Positions 5,346-56,322 of a stretch of DNA of 64,000 nt are shown here, piece by piece (the first letter of the stretch is position 1; the number at the start of each line of letters is the position of its first letter). The translations under genes were made by a program, and so were the position numbers. The notes under the pieces were generated by a model. The model was not told the DNA's origin. It ran no database searches and saw nothing but the letters and a program-made list of their open reading frames with translations. The DNA is from Streptomyces sp. 8K308. GTDB taxonomy: Bacteria; Actinomycetota; Actinomycetes; Streptomycetales; Streptomycetaceae. The stretch lies in NCBI RefSeq assembly GCF_004348315.1, contig NZ_SMKC01000006.1, positions 1 to 64,000 on the forward strand, in the 5' to 3' direction.

Positions 5346-5924
5346 ATGATCGAGATCCCCACGGACCTCCACCCCTCCCTCGTCCCCCTCGCCTTCCTGC
5401 TCGGCACCTGGCAGGGCGCCGGGGTGGCCGAGGGTTTCGAAAAGCAAGAGGGCCCCGACGCCGAGGCGTGCAACTTCGGCCAGCAGGTCACCTTCGCGCA
5501 CGACGGCCGGGACTTCCTCGAGTACGTCTCGCACACCTGGCAGCTCGACGACGAGGGCAACCGCGTGCGCCCGCTGGAGTCGGAGCACGGCTACTGGCGG
5601 ATCAAGGACCGCGAGGTCGAGGTCGTGATGATCCGCGACCAGGGCGTGGCCGAGATCTGGTACGGCGAACTGGCCGAGGGCAAGCCGCAGATCGACCTCG
5701 TCACCGACGCCGTCGCCCGCACCCCGGGCTCCCCCGCGTACTCGGGCGGCAAGCGCCTCTACGGCTACGTCAACGGTGACCTGATGTGGGTCGGCGAGAA
5801 GGCCACCCCCGACACGCCCCTGCGTCCCTACATGTCGGCGCAGCTGAAGAAGGCGGTGGACCCCCGGGAGTGGGTCGCCGACCTCAAGGACCTCCCGGAC
5901 GACGGCATCGCCTTCTTCCGCTGA
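5346..5924 (+). CDS. Nitrobindin-like beta-barrel protein (FABP-like)
   Basis: 192 aa. The N-terminal FLLGTWQGAGVAEG is the nitrobindin GxWxGxG signature. The C-terminal strand is PLRPYMSAQLKKAVDP. Nitrobindins bind ferric heme through a His near the C-terminus; I see no His in that segment, so this is probably the non-heme subgroup annotated as ferric nitrobindin-like. Starts 4 bases after the small membrane peptide. Ligand unknown. Confidence 0.8.
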   Translation: MIEIPTDLHPSLVPLAFLLGTWQGAGVAEGFEKQEGPDAEACNFGQQVTFAHDGRDFLEYVSHTWQLDDEGNRVRPLESEHGYWRIKDREVEVVMIRDQGVAEIWYGELAEGKPQIDLVTDAVARTPGSPAYSGGKRLYGYVNGDLMWVGEKATPDTPLRPYMSAQLKKAVDPREWVADLKDLPDDGIAFFR

Positions 5925-5941
5925 CCGCTGAGTCGCGCGCC

Positions 5942-6703
5942 TCAGATCGTGCGCAGCGCGCCGCCGTCGACGGGGATGATCGACCCGGTGACGTAGCCGG
6001 CCGCCGGGGAGAGCAGGAAGGCGGCCGTCCGGCCGAACTCGGCGGGCTCCCCGTAGCGGGCGAGCGGGATGGCGGCGACCGCGCGCTCCCTGGCCGCGGG
6101 GCCGAAGGCGGCGTCCAGGTCCCGCATCCGGTCGGTGGCGATCCGCCCCGGCAGCAGGCCGAACACCCGCACCGCGCGCGGCCCGAACTCGTCGGCCAGG
6201 TCCTTGGCCACCATGGCGAGCCCGGGGCGCAGCCCGTTGGAGATACCGAGGCCGGCGATGGGCGAGCGGACCGAGGTGGAGAGCACCAGGCCGACCGCGC
6301 CGCCCTCCTCGCTCTCGGACAGGCGCCTGGCGACCGTGCGCGCGCCGCGCACCGCGCCGAGGAAGACCGTCTCGAACGCCTCCCGCCACTGCTCGTCGGT
6401 GGCGGTCGCGGCCGTGCCGGGCGGCGGGCCGCCGACCGAGAGCAGCGCGCCGTCGAGCCGGCCGAACCGGTCGTGGGCCAGCGCCACGAGGCGCTCGGCC
6501 GCGGAGGCGTCGCCCAGGTCGGCCGCCTCGCCGACCGCGATGTCGGGGCCGAGCCGACCGGCGGCGGCGGCCACGGTCGCCTTGTCCCGGGCTGCGAGCA
6601 CCACCCGCGCGCCGTCGGCGACCAACGCCTCGGCGGTGGCGTAGCCGAGTCCCTTGCTGCCGCCGGTGATGACATAGACCCGCTCACGGAGCCCCAGGTC
6701 CAT
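5942..6703 (-). CDS. SDR-family oxidoreductase
   Basis: 253 aa. Rossmann motif VITGGSKGLG (residues ~10-19), then AALLSVGGPPPG in the NNAG-like position, catalytic-region Ser in VLSTSVRSPIAG, and GYVTGSIIPVDGG near the C-terminus. The expected YxxxK helix reads IAGLGISNGLRPGLA, so the canonical Tyr/Lys pair is not obvious (Asn-Gly at that place); the protein may be an atypical or inactive SDR. ATG at 6703 has a GAAGGGAG ribosome site; an earlier in-frame codon at 6745 lacks one. Confidence 0.8.
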   Translation of the reverse strand: MDLGLRERVYVITGGSKGLGYATAEALVADGARVVLAARDKATVAAAAGRLGPDIAVGEAADLGDASAAERLVALAHDRFGRLDGALLSVGGPPPGTAATATDEQWREAFETVFLGAVRGARTVARRLSESEEGGAVGLVLSTSVRSPIAGLGISNGLRPGLAMVAKDLADEFGPRAVRVFGLLPGRIATDRMRDLDAAFGPAARERAVAAIPLARYGEPAEFGRTAAFLLSPAAGYVTGSIIPVDGGALRTI

Positions 6704-53118: not shown

Positions 53119-53721
53119 ATGGCACGCCCCCGACAGTTCGACGAGCAGGACGTCGTCGCCAGGGCCACCGACCTGTTCTGGCGCCGCGGCTACCACGCCA
53201 CCTCGGTGCGCGACCTGGGCGAGGAGCTCGAGCTCACGCCCAGCAGCATGTACCGGACGTTCAAGGACAAGCACACCCTGTTCCTCCGCGCGCTCGACCA
53301 CTACCGGGCCACCGAGTCCGCCGAGGCCGAGCAGCGCCTCGGCGCCGCCGACCGCCCGGCCCGCCAGGCCCTGCGGGACTGGCTGCTGTGGCTGGTCACC
53401 TGCCCGACCGGCGACGAGCCGGCCCGCGGCTGCCTCGTCGTCAACACGGCCACCGAGCTCGGGACCACCGACGCCCTCGTCCACCAGCGGACCGAGGCCG
53501 CCTTCGAGGTCACCCGAGAGGCGCTGCGATCGCTGCTGACCGAGGGCCGCGCCCAGGGCGAACTCCCCGCCGACCTCGACCTCGACGCCGCCGTGGAGCT
53601 CCTCTTCACCACGGTGCTCGGGCTGCGGGTACGGGAGCGCGCCGGCCACGACCACGCGCGCCTGACCACCGCCGTCGACGCCGCGATCCGAGCCCTGCCC
53701 ACGGCCGCGGGACCCGCCTGA
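53119..53721 (+). CDS. TetR-family repressor
   Basis: 200 aa. HTH: VARATDLFWRRGYHATSVRD, LGEELELTPSSMYRTFKDKH. The C-terminal domain has ARGCLVVNTATELGT, typical of the TetR_C group controlling quinone or electrophile responses; the Cys in GCLVVN could be redox-sensitive. ATG 53119. Divergent from the MFS gene and controlled by the same operators. Confidence 0.88.
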   Translation: MARPRQFDEQDVVARATDLFWRRGYHATSVRDLGEELELTPSSMYRTFKDKHTLFLRALDHYRATESAEAEQRLGAADRPARQALRDWLLWLVTCPTGDEPARGCLVVNTATELGTTDALVHQRTEAAFEVTREALRSLLTEGRAQGELPADLDLDAAVELLFTTVLGLRVRERAGHDHARLTTAVDAAIRALPTAAGPA

Positions 53722-53748
53722 CCACCGGCGCGCACCGGGCGCGCGGGC

Positions 53749-54418
53749 TCAGGTGATCTCGAGGTTGGCCATCATCCCCATGTCCTCGTGTTCCGCGTTG
53801 TGGCAGTGGAAGAGATAGCGGCCGCGGTAGCCGTCGAAGCGGGTGATGATCTCCGCGGACTCGCCCGGCCGCAGCGACACGGTGTCCTTGAGGCCCGCGT
53901 CGTGCGGCAGCGGCGGCCGGCCGCCGCGCGAGAGCACCCGGAAGCCGACCAGGTGCAGGTGGACGGGATGGTGGACGTCGGCGACCAGCCGCCACACCTC
54001 GACGTCGCCGAGCCGGGTGGTGACGTCGGAGCGCGCGGGGTCGAACGGCAGCCCGGCGATGAGCCAGCCGTGGCCGCCGCGCATCCGCCCGGCCCGGAAG
54101 GCGAAGTCCCGCACCCGCGTGGCGTCCGACCGGCGCCACGTCGGCAGGTCCGCGGAGAGGACACGCGGCACGCGGCTGTCGTCGGCCGCGCGGCGTGCGA
54201 CGCGGAAGGCCAGCACGTCGCGGGTGCGCCCGGAGCCGAGCCGGTTGACGATCCTGACGCGGCCGCCCACTGGGACTCGCGCGAAGTCGACGATCACGTC
54301 GTAGCGCTCGGCCGGCGCCATCGGCAGGTGCCGGTGGGTGACCGGCGCCGCCAGCAGCCCCTGGTCGGCGCCGATCTGGACGAGGTCGAGCCGGCGCCCG
54401 TCGTCGAGCGCCCTGCCC
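53749..54418 (-). pseudogene. C-terminal remnant of a multicopper oxidase
   Basis: Homology runs from RALDDGRRLDLVQIGADQG to the stop at 53749: PMAPAERYDVIVDFARVP, then copper ligands HPVHLHLVGFRV and YLFHCHNAEHEDMGMMANL (type 1 and trinuclear site). All N-terminal cupredoxin domains (~250 residues) with their HxH pairs are missing. The frame continues upstream to 54543 but the protein there is unrelated. The break at about 54418 is the edge of an inserted or deleted segment. Confidence 0.8.
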
Positions 54419-54419
54419 C

Positions 54420-54764
54420 ATGTGCTGGGGAGCGATGGTGGTCGCCCGCGTCGGGACAGTCCACGTCGGGTCTGAGGACCCGACCTGGCTGGGCATAGAA
54501 GGGCTGCCGAAGCTGAACTCGGAGGTGTGGCGCCGCTGGCCACGAACCAGCGGGCCGCTGACCGGGCCGCTCGGCCAGTTCGCCGCCATCCTGCCCTGCC
54601 TCAACACCTCCGGATCCCTGGTCCGAGCCATGGAAACCGTCGCACCCGAGCGCGCCCAGCTGGCACGGGCAGCGGCCCTGCGCATCGCGGGATCAAACGA
54701 ACCAGCCGAGACCGCCGAACGAGCCATTGAGCTGCTCTGGGACCTGCTCACCGAGTGTCGCTAG
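54420..54764 (+). CDS. Unrecognised ORF at the break point
   Basis: 114 aa, starting two bases inside the break of the oxidase remnant. Core LPKLNSEVWRRWPRTSGPLT, GQFAAILPCLNTSGSLVRAM, and a helical C-terminus ending AIELLWDLLTECR. Codon use looks coding. No ribosome site. It ends inside the tail of the TnsA-like remnant. It may be a cargo-gene or element fragment. Confidence 0.35.
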   Translation: MCWGAMVVARVGTVHVGSEDPTWLGIEGLPKLNSEVWRRWPRTSGPLTGPLGQFAAILPCLNTSGSLVRAMETVAPERAQLARAAALRIAGSNEPAETAERAIELLWDLLTECR

Positions 54765-55086
54765 TCAACTTCTGGACAACGCGGCCCCGTTGCTGGAGAT
54801 GATCAGGCCGCGGCGGGCGTCGCGCTCGCGCCGCGACCGCGACGACGTCTGGCTCGGAGTCCAGCCGCATCAGATGGTCCCGCTCGACCCATGACTCGTA
54901 GCCCACGAGCGTGGCCCTCCTCACAGCCCAATACCAACCGGGGAAATTCCGCTGCCCGCGATAGGACGGAAACGCCCACACCTGCCCCGCCTCCTCGAAG
55001 CGGGCCGACCACATCACCTCAAGCGGTCCCCGACGCAGCTCACCCCGAATATCGACGTACTCAAGCCAGAAGTCCTCCGCGTCCAC
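54748..55086 (-). pseudogene. Truncated TnsA-like transposase endonuclease subunit
   Basis: GTG 55086 with GAGGGTGG. The first ~80 residues have the pattern of streptomycete TnsA-like heteromeric transposase subunits: WLEYVDIRGELRRGPLEVMW, FPSYRGQRNFPGWYWA, LVGYESWVERDHLMRLDSEP. After VVAVAA the sequence becomes Arg/Pro-rich and unlike the family, and the catalytic core is absent. No tnsB or tnsC is present. Confidence 0.65.
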
Positions 55087-55231
55087 CCACCCTCACTCGC
55101 CGCTGACCAGGTGCGACGACCGTGGACGGCGAGAGCGGCCAGTACGTCGCGTTGATCAAGACAACACCGAAGATGCCCGAAGTCGACTGAGATGTGAGAC
55201 CAGTTGCCTCGCTTTCCCTGCGACAGGTCAA

Positions 55232-55262
55232 AGACTGGCCAGTTCTCTGCTCAGACTGGCCA
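55232..55262. repeat. Spaced direct repeats, possible transposon-end sites
   Basis: AGACTGGCCA at 55232-55241 and 55253-55262, 21 bases (two helical turns) apart, upstream of the TnsA-like start. TnsB-binding sites in Tn7-like ends have this kind of phasing. Alternatively an operator of the XRE gene. Confidence 0.4.
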
Positions 55263-55320
55263 ACGCCTCTGGAAAGTGGCCCACCAGCGTGAACAGTCAC
55301 ACCGCGCCGCGATTACTGTC

Positions 55321-55337
55321 GCAAGCAGGTCGCTTGC
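55321..55337. promoter_or_regulatory. Inverted repeat before XRE regulator
   Basis: GCAAGC-5-GCTTGC, followed by TTGCAATCGTTAGCAA half-sites, ends 31 bases before the XRE start. Likely autoregulatory site and promoter. Confidence 0.55.
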
Positions 55338-55368
55338 AATCGTTAGCAAGGTGCGGCACGCTGGGCGC

Positions 55369-55770
55369 ATGGCCTCACTCGGTGTCGGCAATCTCGGCGA
55401 GTTCCTGCGGGAGCAACGCCGGCAGGCGCGGCTGTCGTTGCGGCAGCTCGCCGAGGCGGCCGGGGTGTCGAACCCGTACCTGAGCCAGATCGAGCGCGGG
55501 CTGCGCAAGCCGAGCGCCGAGATCCTGCAGCAGATCGCCAAGGGGCTGCGGATCTCGGCCGAGACGCTGTACGTCCAGGCCGGCATCCTCGACGAGCGCG
55601 CCGAGGGCGGCGCGGACGGCGAGCGGGCCGCCGGCGGCGGCGTGCCGGAGGCGGTGCGGGCGGATCCCCATCTCACCGAGCAGCAGAAGCAGGCGCTGCT
55701 CCAGATCTACGACTCGTTCCGCCGGGAGCACCAGCAGGAACACACGCAACACAGGGAGAACCCTCGATGA
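55369..55770 (+). CDS. XRE-family helix-turn-helix regulator
   Basis: 133 aa. HTH: LGEFLREQRRQARLSLRQLA, EAAGVSNPYLSQIERGLRKP, SAEILQQIAKGLRISAETLY. The C-terminal part is a helical HLTEQQKQALLQIYDSFRRE tail, common in streptomycete members of this group. No ribosome site; start is chosen by family length. Its stop overlaps the HBHA-like start (ATGA). Confidence 0.88.
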   Translation: MASLGVGNLGEFLREQRRQARLSLRQLAEAAGVSNPYLSQIERGLRKPSAEILQQIAKGLRISAETLYVQAGILDERAEGGADGERAAGGGVPEAVRADPHLTEQQKQALLQIYDSFRREHQQEHTQHRENPR

Positions 55771-56198
55771 CCATCACGGACGACCTCAGGAAGACCCTGA
55801 CCAGCTCCACGCCCGTCTACGTGGCCGCCGGCACCGCCGACCTGGCCGCGCAGAAGCTGCGCGAACTGCCGGCCACCTTCGAGCGGCTGCGTGAGCAGGC
55901 GCCCGAGCGGCTGCCGAAGCTGCGGGAGCAGGCCCAGCAGGTGGCCATGCAGGGCGTGGGCATCGCCCTCGAGTACGCCGTGAAGGCCCGCGAGACCTAC
56001 GACGGCCTCGCCGAACGCGGCCGCTCGGTCGTGGAGCGGCGCCGCGCCGACTCCGGCGAGGAGCCGGTGGTCGTCGTGGAGCGCGCCGAGCCGGAGCCGG
56101 TTCGCGAGCCCGCGCCCGAGGCGGAGGCGGAGGCGCCGAAGCCGCGCAAGACCACGGCCCGCAAGACGACCGTGAAGAAGACGCCCCCGCGGCCCTGA
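55767..56198 (+). CDS. HBHA-like (heparin-binding hemagglutinin-type) protein
   Basis: 143 aa. Long helical N-terminal part (LAAQKLRELPATFERLREQA, PERLPKLREQAQQVAMQG) and a basic Lys/Thr/Ala/Pro tail (KPRKTTARKTTVKKTPPRP). This is the layout of mycobacterial HBHA, though with far fewer Lys-rich repeats. Coupled to the XRE gene. Envelope- or membrane-associated role assumed from the family only. Confidence 0.75.
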   Translation: MTITDDLRKTLTSSTPVYVAAGTADLAAQKLRELPATFERLREQAPERLPKLREQAQQVAMQGVGIALEYAVKARETYDGLAERGRSVVERRRADSGEEPVVVVERAEPEPVREPAPEAEAEAPKPRKTTARKTTVKKTPPRP

Positions 56199-56322
56199 CC
56201 GACAGCCCACGAAGCGGCTGGCCGAGGGCCGGGCCCGCCTGGCCAGCCGCCCAGCGCCCGCCGGCGCGGTCAACGTCATCCAGGCGGAGGCCGGCCAGCG
56301 AGGACGTGACCCCACCCAGGCC

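Follow-up and report, generated by a model that had tools for sequence, protein, structure and literature searches.

A Tn7-Like Remnant beside an XRE-Type Regulator Gene

The window analyzed here (64,000 nucleotides of Streptomyces sp. 8K308, positions 1 to 64,000 of contig NZ_SMKC01000006.1) contains a wrecked locus that we read, with a probability of about 0.9, as what is left of the right end of a Tn7-like transposon, one belonging to an actinobacterial clade in which the more complete elements have tnsA, tnsB, and tnsC together with a TniQ-like gene and insert before an XRE-type regulator gene. From left to right, the locus combines fragments of four genes with a single transposon end: a C-terminal multicopper oxidase piece without its head (53749–54378, minus strand); a junction zone bounded by the limits of the two flanking protein alignments (54379–54413); a C-terminal piece of a dCMP/cytidine-type deaminase (54414–54764, plus strand); 30 bp without assignment, which had no match in searches against relatives (54765–54794); a scrap of tnsC (54795–54833, minus strand); the N-terminal ~86 of ~258 residues of tnsA (54829–55086, minus strand); and a right end with degenerate TnsB-type repeats (55087–55262, minus strand). 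The regulator gene follows (55369–55770, plus strand; Pfam HTH_3, 57 bits); its region was matched in all 61 genus genomes, and its product may resemble Rv0474, whose gene adjoins hbhA in mycobacteria. tRNA and Rfam scans of the window returned nothing. Judged by its sequence, the window copy is a remnant and not a working Tn7-like member, since it retains only the N-terminal part of TnsA, 39 bp of tnsC, and a right end that has decayed. The first-pass annotation had proposed an internally deleted, once complete heteromeric (Tn7-like) transposon, a proposal that is well supported by the elements found at the same site in related genomes.

Fuller Relatives before the Same Gene in Other Streptomyces

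The frame reading inward from 55086, previously described as a truncated TnsA-like gene, has 112 codons with a GTG start and matches NF033179 (TnsA_like_Actin) with 78 bits over profile positions 3–66 of 212, which bears out that description. Its score lies under the family cut-off of 110 bits because two thirds of the protein are missing; the full TnsA of locus L043, to which the fragment is 73% identical, scores 292.6 bits. Relatives with a homologous TnsA do carry fuller tnsA-tnsB-tnsC-tniQ elements at this position in other Streptomyces, as seen when positions 53700–56300 were used to query 61 genus genomes. In three of these (G007, G009, and G049), tnsA, the right end, and the regulator gene align with the window as one block, with the 39-bp tnsC piece matching about 2.9 kb away, and the genes there run tniQ-tnsC-tnsB-tnsA-right end-regulator (tnsB of G009 is split over two frames); at the level of loci, the homology of tnsA, right end, and regulator is contiguous with L043, L044, and L045. 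The TnsA, DDE transposase TnsB, and AAA+ TnsC of a Tn7-like transposon are all present in L043: its TnsA matches Pfam TnsA_N (27.8 bits, cut-off 26.5), its TnsB matches Mu-transpos_C (39.4 bits, cut-off 21.7), rve (32.1 bits, just below the cut-off of 32.6), and the TnsB of Tn6677 (E 5.3e-16), and its TnsC matches TniB (61 bits), AAA_22 (51 bits), and ShTnsC (E 6.5e-5).

Regulator loci could be examined in 59 of the 61 genus genomes (the window's own included, G008 and G050 left aside), some of them ending at contig ends and that of G022 after ~460 bp upstream. Genes of the tns set lie at the regulator in eight of the 59, namely G000, G003 (~3 kb), G007, G009, G021, G025, G032 (a fragment), and G049; in G028 the same place holds a tniQ-like scrap of ~40 residues. 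Uniform placement of the 94 TnsA matches listed would put 0.09 within 4 kb of the regulator, versus the eight observed (P about 1e-13, a value that assumes independence and counts the window among the eight).

Two arrangements among these relatives may be recorded here. S. pyxinicus (L049, L179, and L190) has two different Tn7-like elements in tandem at the regulator, with tnsA starts ~6.4 kb apart. A gene for an NmrA-like reductase, 91% identical in the two elements, is located inside L046, separating tnsA from the right end (5502–6407), and just outside the left end in L043 (4143–5054).

The Regulator 5′ Flank as a Recurrent Landing Site

A wider TnsA search, from which the best 78 of 93 relatives' loci were kept (mostly Streptomyces), points to one attachment site used many times over. 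The regulator gene is present in 25 of the 78 loci, in a single orientation in all 25; of the 53 loci without it, at least eight have 520 bp or less upstream. Homology to tnsA, tnsB, tnsC, and tniQ is found in 18 of the 25, one of which is truncated where its contig stops; six are broken (L189, L193, L210, L240, L245, and L250), and L242 is cut by a contig end. The right end lies 86–110 bp before the regulator ATG in the 19 of 25 loci where it was measured (the other six being L182, L188, L190, L203, L217, and L245), with a second candidate end at 115 bp in L198. These 19 ends stand 38–62 bp from a palindrome, GCAAGC-N5-GCTTGC (55321–55337 in the window), which is present before the regulator gene in 59 of the 62 regulator loci of the genus-genome set and in 24 of the 25 of the 78-locus set, and which may be an operator or a recognition landmark. 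In the genus-genome set, L043, L044, L045, L046, L049, and L050 have their ends 85–109 bp before the ATG (L050 at 85), and L092 has its end at 160 bp. L182, L186, L190, and L201 come from the same genomes as L046, L045, L049, and L175, respectively, so that each such pair should be counted only once.

The regulator-site relatives have TG.. termini with several transposase-type repeats and a 5-bp target duplication. Their right ends read ..GAGAC.GG[TA]CA toward the host and their left ends TG[TA]CC.GTC.., with inner repeats such as GTCTCGCTCAA.CTGAGG. Exact 5-bp duplications flank L046 (CCCGG), L050 (CGACT), and L092 (CACGG), as well as L189, L191, L196, L198, L202, L203, L229, L238, and L243, giving 12 loci, eight of them at the regulator gene; in L043 and L044 four of the five bases agree, with one mismatch. 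The right end of L202 was accepted with two mismatches for having its clade's spacing, while right-end candidates in L222 and L235, with two mismatches, were dropped. No matching left end was found by the end pattern in the remaining loci of the 78, often because the available stretch of sequence stops.

We read this recurrent position as site-specific homing to conserved 5′ flanks, probably by TniQ. The fuller elements stand with their tnsA-side end toward the regulator 5′ flank, mostly 85–110 bp before the ATG; TniQ would select the site by binding near the regulator promoter or start, and TnsA and TnsB would cut and paste the element. It is unlikely that the position reflects merely a permissive intergenic gap, or one old insertion spread by recombination, with no target recognition. 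L043 and L044 share 94% identity along a 6.4-kb block that extends into the regulator gene, so some copies could indeed have been spread by recombination, and the insertion distances vary over ~25 bp. However, elements at this one gene differ in their duplications and in their distance from it, which points to separate insertions; the orientation is the same in all 25 loci, the site is used by diverged tns sets (55%–95% TnsA identity), and in L189 and L198 the end has end-like fragments next to it, which suggest repeated arrival.

Other Landing Sites and the Candidate Target Selector

Homing of this kind may extend beyond the regulator gene. In a TnsA tree of 74 rows (five of 79 with fewer than 100 residues were left out, and the window row fills 32% of the columns), the window clusters with 14 rows from the regulator site and three others (18 rows in all, support 100/96), and lies in a wider group of 33 rows comprising 23 regulator-site, three acnA-site, and six other rows besides the window; rows of this wider clade without the regulator gene include L200, which has only 122 bp upstream. 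Seven loci lie before the aconitase gene (L199, L202, L208, L209, L252, L255, and L257; Pfam Aconitase, 562 bits in L208), and this acnA site is found in two separate TnsA clades. Five others share a PadR-gene flank (L214, L221, L229, L238, and L243; PadR checked in L214, 77.5 bits), and nine share another flank by the right end (L215, L216, L224, L226–L228, and L230–L232). In the acnA elements examined, either several TniQ-related frames are present or the TniQ-related frame differs. On balance we favor the view that different groups of the lineage are directed to the 5′ flanks of different conserved genes (the XRE regulator, acnA, PadR, and the fourth flank), with acnA appearing in two clades as if target choice were an exchanged module, and that the palindromic promoter region of the regulator is a new attachment site.

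The gene downstream of tnsC is likely TniQ, an assignment that we regard as soft. It encodes ~300 residues, among which C98, C101, C125, and H128 are invariant. Pfam TniQ matches fall below the cut-off, with eight of 15 candidates at E ≤ 0.01 and a best value of 5.8e-4; phmmer gave no match against the PDB and Foldseek none at E ≤ 0.001. In a VIA-align comparison with 296 chains, TniQ-containing CAST entries took ranks 2, 3, and 5, weakly (Z 4.5, rmsd 4.8, 117 aligned; Z 3.9, 7.2, 168; and Z 3.5, 5.5, 184), values too low to stand alone.

Streptomyces sp. NBC_01549 has identical TnsA rows L197 and L198, one at the regulator site and the other on another contig, of 843 kb; the pair may hint at a second target pathway.

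Relationship to Tn7 and Its Relatives

Tn7 (tnsABCD, glmS site) has a separate TnsA endonuclease together with a DDE transposase TnsB, an AAA+ TnsC, and a TniQ-type protein, as well as end repeats, a 5-bp target duplication, and a tnsA-side end placed toward a conserved gene, all of which recur in the elements described here, the TniQ-type protein as a likely assignment. They differ in where the target lies. TnsD of Tn7, a protein with a TniQ domain, binds the attachment site and brings in TnsC together with the transposase (PMC10293859; PMC11406308) and recognizes the coding sequence at the 3′ end of glmS (PMC11406308), whereas the elements here stand at the 5′ flank of the regulator gene, which their TniQ would presumably recognize. 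Benler et al. (2021) described a Tn7-like clade dominated by Actinobacteria, which has its host phylum in common with the elements here; in the part of that paper available to us, no member is experimentally characterized and no attachment site is named for the clade (PMC8649781). The window fragment and its relatives match NF033179, a protein family name that is silent on the site used. We found no attachment site given for Streptomyces Tn7-like elements in a literature search that included the accessible parts of PMC10293859, PMC8649781, and PMC11406308 and had preprints and most subscription papers outside its range. The present comparison provides a landing place for an actinobacterial Tn7-like group, together with its ends and duplications and the narrow range of positions in which it inserts. 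Target choice thereby becomes directly testable, and the site could yield a defined insertion point for Streptomyces genetics; insertion before conserved genes, in contrast to insertion behind one as for Tn7 at glmS, would be the point for Tn7 specialists to examine.

The Decayed Right End of the Window Copy

A profile of 18 right ends from relatives matched the window at 55084–55226 in an nhmmer search (profile positions 25–167, E 8.2e-22); since the alignment starts at profile position 25, part of the right end must lie beyond 55226. Sequence comparison thus makes the right end secure to about 55226, and its outer part and terminus less so. A corresponding profile of 10 left ends gave nothing credible in the window (best E 0.42). 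When the full ends of 21 relatives were scored against every terminus from 55190 to 55344, the best was 55262 (summed score 1916), followed by 55230 (1836.5), and one of 60 shuffles of the outer flank scored as high as 55262. We assign the terminus to 55262 with moderate confidence, as a decayed and uncertain end. On the outward strand it reads TGGCCAGTCTGAGC, compared with TGACCTGTCTCTGC in relatives. A terminus at 55262 gives a spacing of 176 to tnsA (relatives 166–169 or 181–196), 106 to the regulator ATG, and 58 to the palindrome, values within or between the ranges of the relatives; one copy of the 5-bp duplication would then fall at 55263–55267, a site defined by position only, its partner being lost.

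Two other positions were considered. A terminus at 55230, with the AGACTGGCCA pair outside the element, would fit the terminus motif (55220–55230) and put the end 138 bp from the ATG, but the scan and the distances in relatives prefer 55262. Position 55299 is supported by base-1 alignments in eight of 18 relatives, but has a lower whole-end score.

The two AGACTGGCCA copies reported in the first-pass annotation are present at 55232–55241 and 55253–55262 (plus strand), and their interpretation there as TnsB-type sites receives moderate support from the terminus scan and from repeat comparisons; they are probably part of the right end. On the basis of the end alignments, the inner copy is probably a degenerate transposase-type repeat and the outer copy probably the decayed terminus, reading outward TGGCCAGTCT versus TGACCTGTCT in relatives. 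No exact AGACTGGCCA occurs in the 400 bp before the regulator at any of the 61 other loci of the genus-genome set. A single copy with one mismatch lies upstream in five relatives' loci (L046 and L182, from one genome, L184, L217, and L245) and also in L082, a locus without tns matches. A 128-bp query around the repeats gave short matches only, in 24 of 150 genomes at E ≤ 0.1, its own included. The best of these lie in a dioxygenase-like frame, presumably pcaH; in several genomes a part of that frame shares ~80% identity with positions 55258–55310 (53 bp, overlapping the outermost repeat and the flank), a likeness that may be chance or a scrap.

Decay of the Window Copy

The window copy lacks tnsB and tniQ, almost the whole of tnsC, and its left end. 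The loss of tnsB and tnsC had been noted from the sequence. For tnsB this is borne out, and for tnsC it is true of nearly all the gene, with a 39-bp scrap surviving at 54795–54833 beside tnsA: neither the TnsB nor the TnsC of L043 found a match in the draft genome, in a search whose TnsB query matched all three carriers used as controls (G003, G009, and G021) and did not match G000 or G037. The scrap corresponds to about residues 92–104 of tnsC and is 95% identical over its 39 bp to L043:7827–7865 and L044:8949–8987, inside tnsC. Its abutting tnsA marks an internal deletion of ~2.9 kb, equivalent to 7866–10740 in L043 coordinates, running from tnsC codon ~104 to tnsA codon ~87.

The multicopper oxidase is a remnant, as had been proposed: only a C-terminal piece, readable up to 54378, aligns with the oxidase in L006 (67% identity to residues 344–551 of 552; Pfam Cu-oxidase_2, 77 bits). 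The neighboring piece of 114 residues is 62% identical to residues 100–213 of a 215-residue relative (L106:1198–1845) that belongs to Pfam PF00383 (dCMP_cyt_deam_1); Pfam gave no match to the piece alone. This deaminase piece changes the earlier picture in two respects. The TGTGCTGGGG at 54421, proposed as the transposon (left) end, supplies codons of ..CPMCWGA.. in the truncated deaminase and is ruled out as an end. The idea that the element's own deletion took away the oxidase head finds no support, since the deaminase piece separates the oxidase piece from the scrap of transposon. Nor did the missing oxidase N terminus turn up elsewhere in the genome, where the only match was another oxidase, at 37%–44% identity. 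Neither piece was found in the 86 searched loci (the 78 TnsA loci and L043–L050, of which L047 is an empty site), and the deaminase is therefore not usual cargo. The left neighborhood was also rejected as the regulator's ancestral neighbor, because in the closest match, G037, its counterparts are on other contigs.

In the history that we propose, an internal deletion in this genome would have joined tnsC codon ~104 to tnsA codon ~87, and a further rearrangement would have taken the left half and placed the deaminase and oxidase pieces alongside, leaving a dead copy. Other loci show comparable losses: tnsA is joined at codon ~80 to tnsC in L250 and to the end of tniQ in L249, and L189 (7834–10648, ~2.8 kb) keeps both ends and an exact duplication without tnsB and tnsC, beside another end-like fragment. 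The wreck has decayed in an ordinary way and is one dead copy among several; the interest lies in the landing site. We consider it very unlikely that a faulty assembly of this 703-contig draft genome created the oxidase/deaminase/tnsC/tnsA mosaic: three unrelated gene pieces do lie within 0.7 kb, and among the matches listed for 53700–56300 in the 61 genus genomes none spans the joints of the wreck, but these joints lie within a contig at least 64 kb long, and wrecks with other internal deletions are known in L250, L249, and L189. That the TnsA-like frame is instead a small gene in its own right, encoding a stand-alone nuclease or a fusion protein, and no transposon remnant, as its uninterrupted 112 codons and GTG start might suggest, is scarcely credible, given that homology is limited to the N-terminal third, the last ~26 codons cross the tnsC scrap and flank outside the tnsA alignment, relatives have a full tnsA with tnsB and tnsC behind and transposon ends before it, and other wrecks break at different codons; among the 78 loci no conserved TnsA-like protein of such short length was noticed.

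The draft genome of 8K308 contains a single TnsA match. NF033179 was matched in 44 of the 61 genus genomes, in 29 above the cut-off, and in none of 14 control genomes, and a TnsA profile gave one weak match in the PDB (E 0.013). Several TnsA-like matches lie a few kb to about 100 kb from both ends of long contigs (G047, G058, G180, G187, and G240), and are perhaps within terminal repeats of linear chromosomes.
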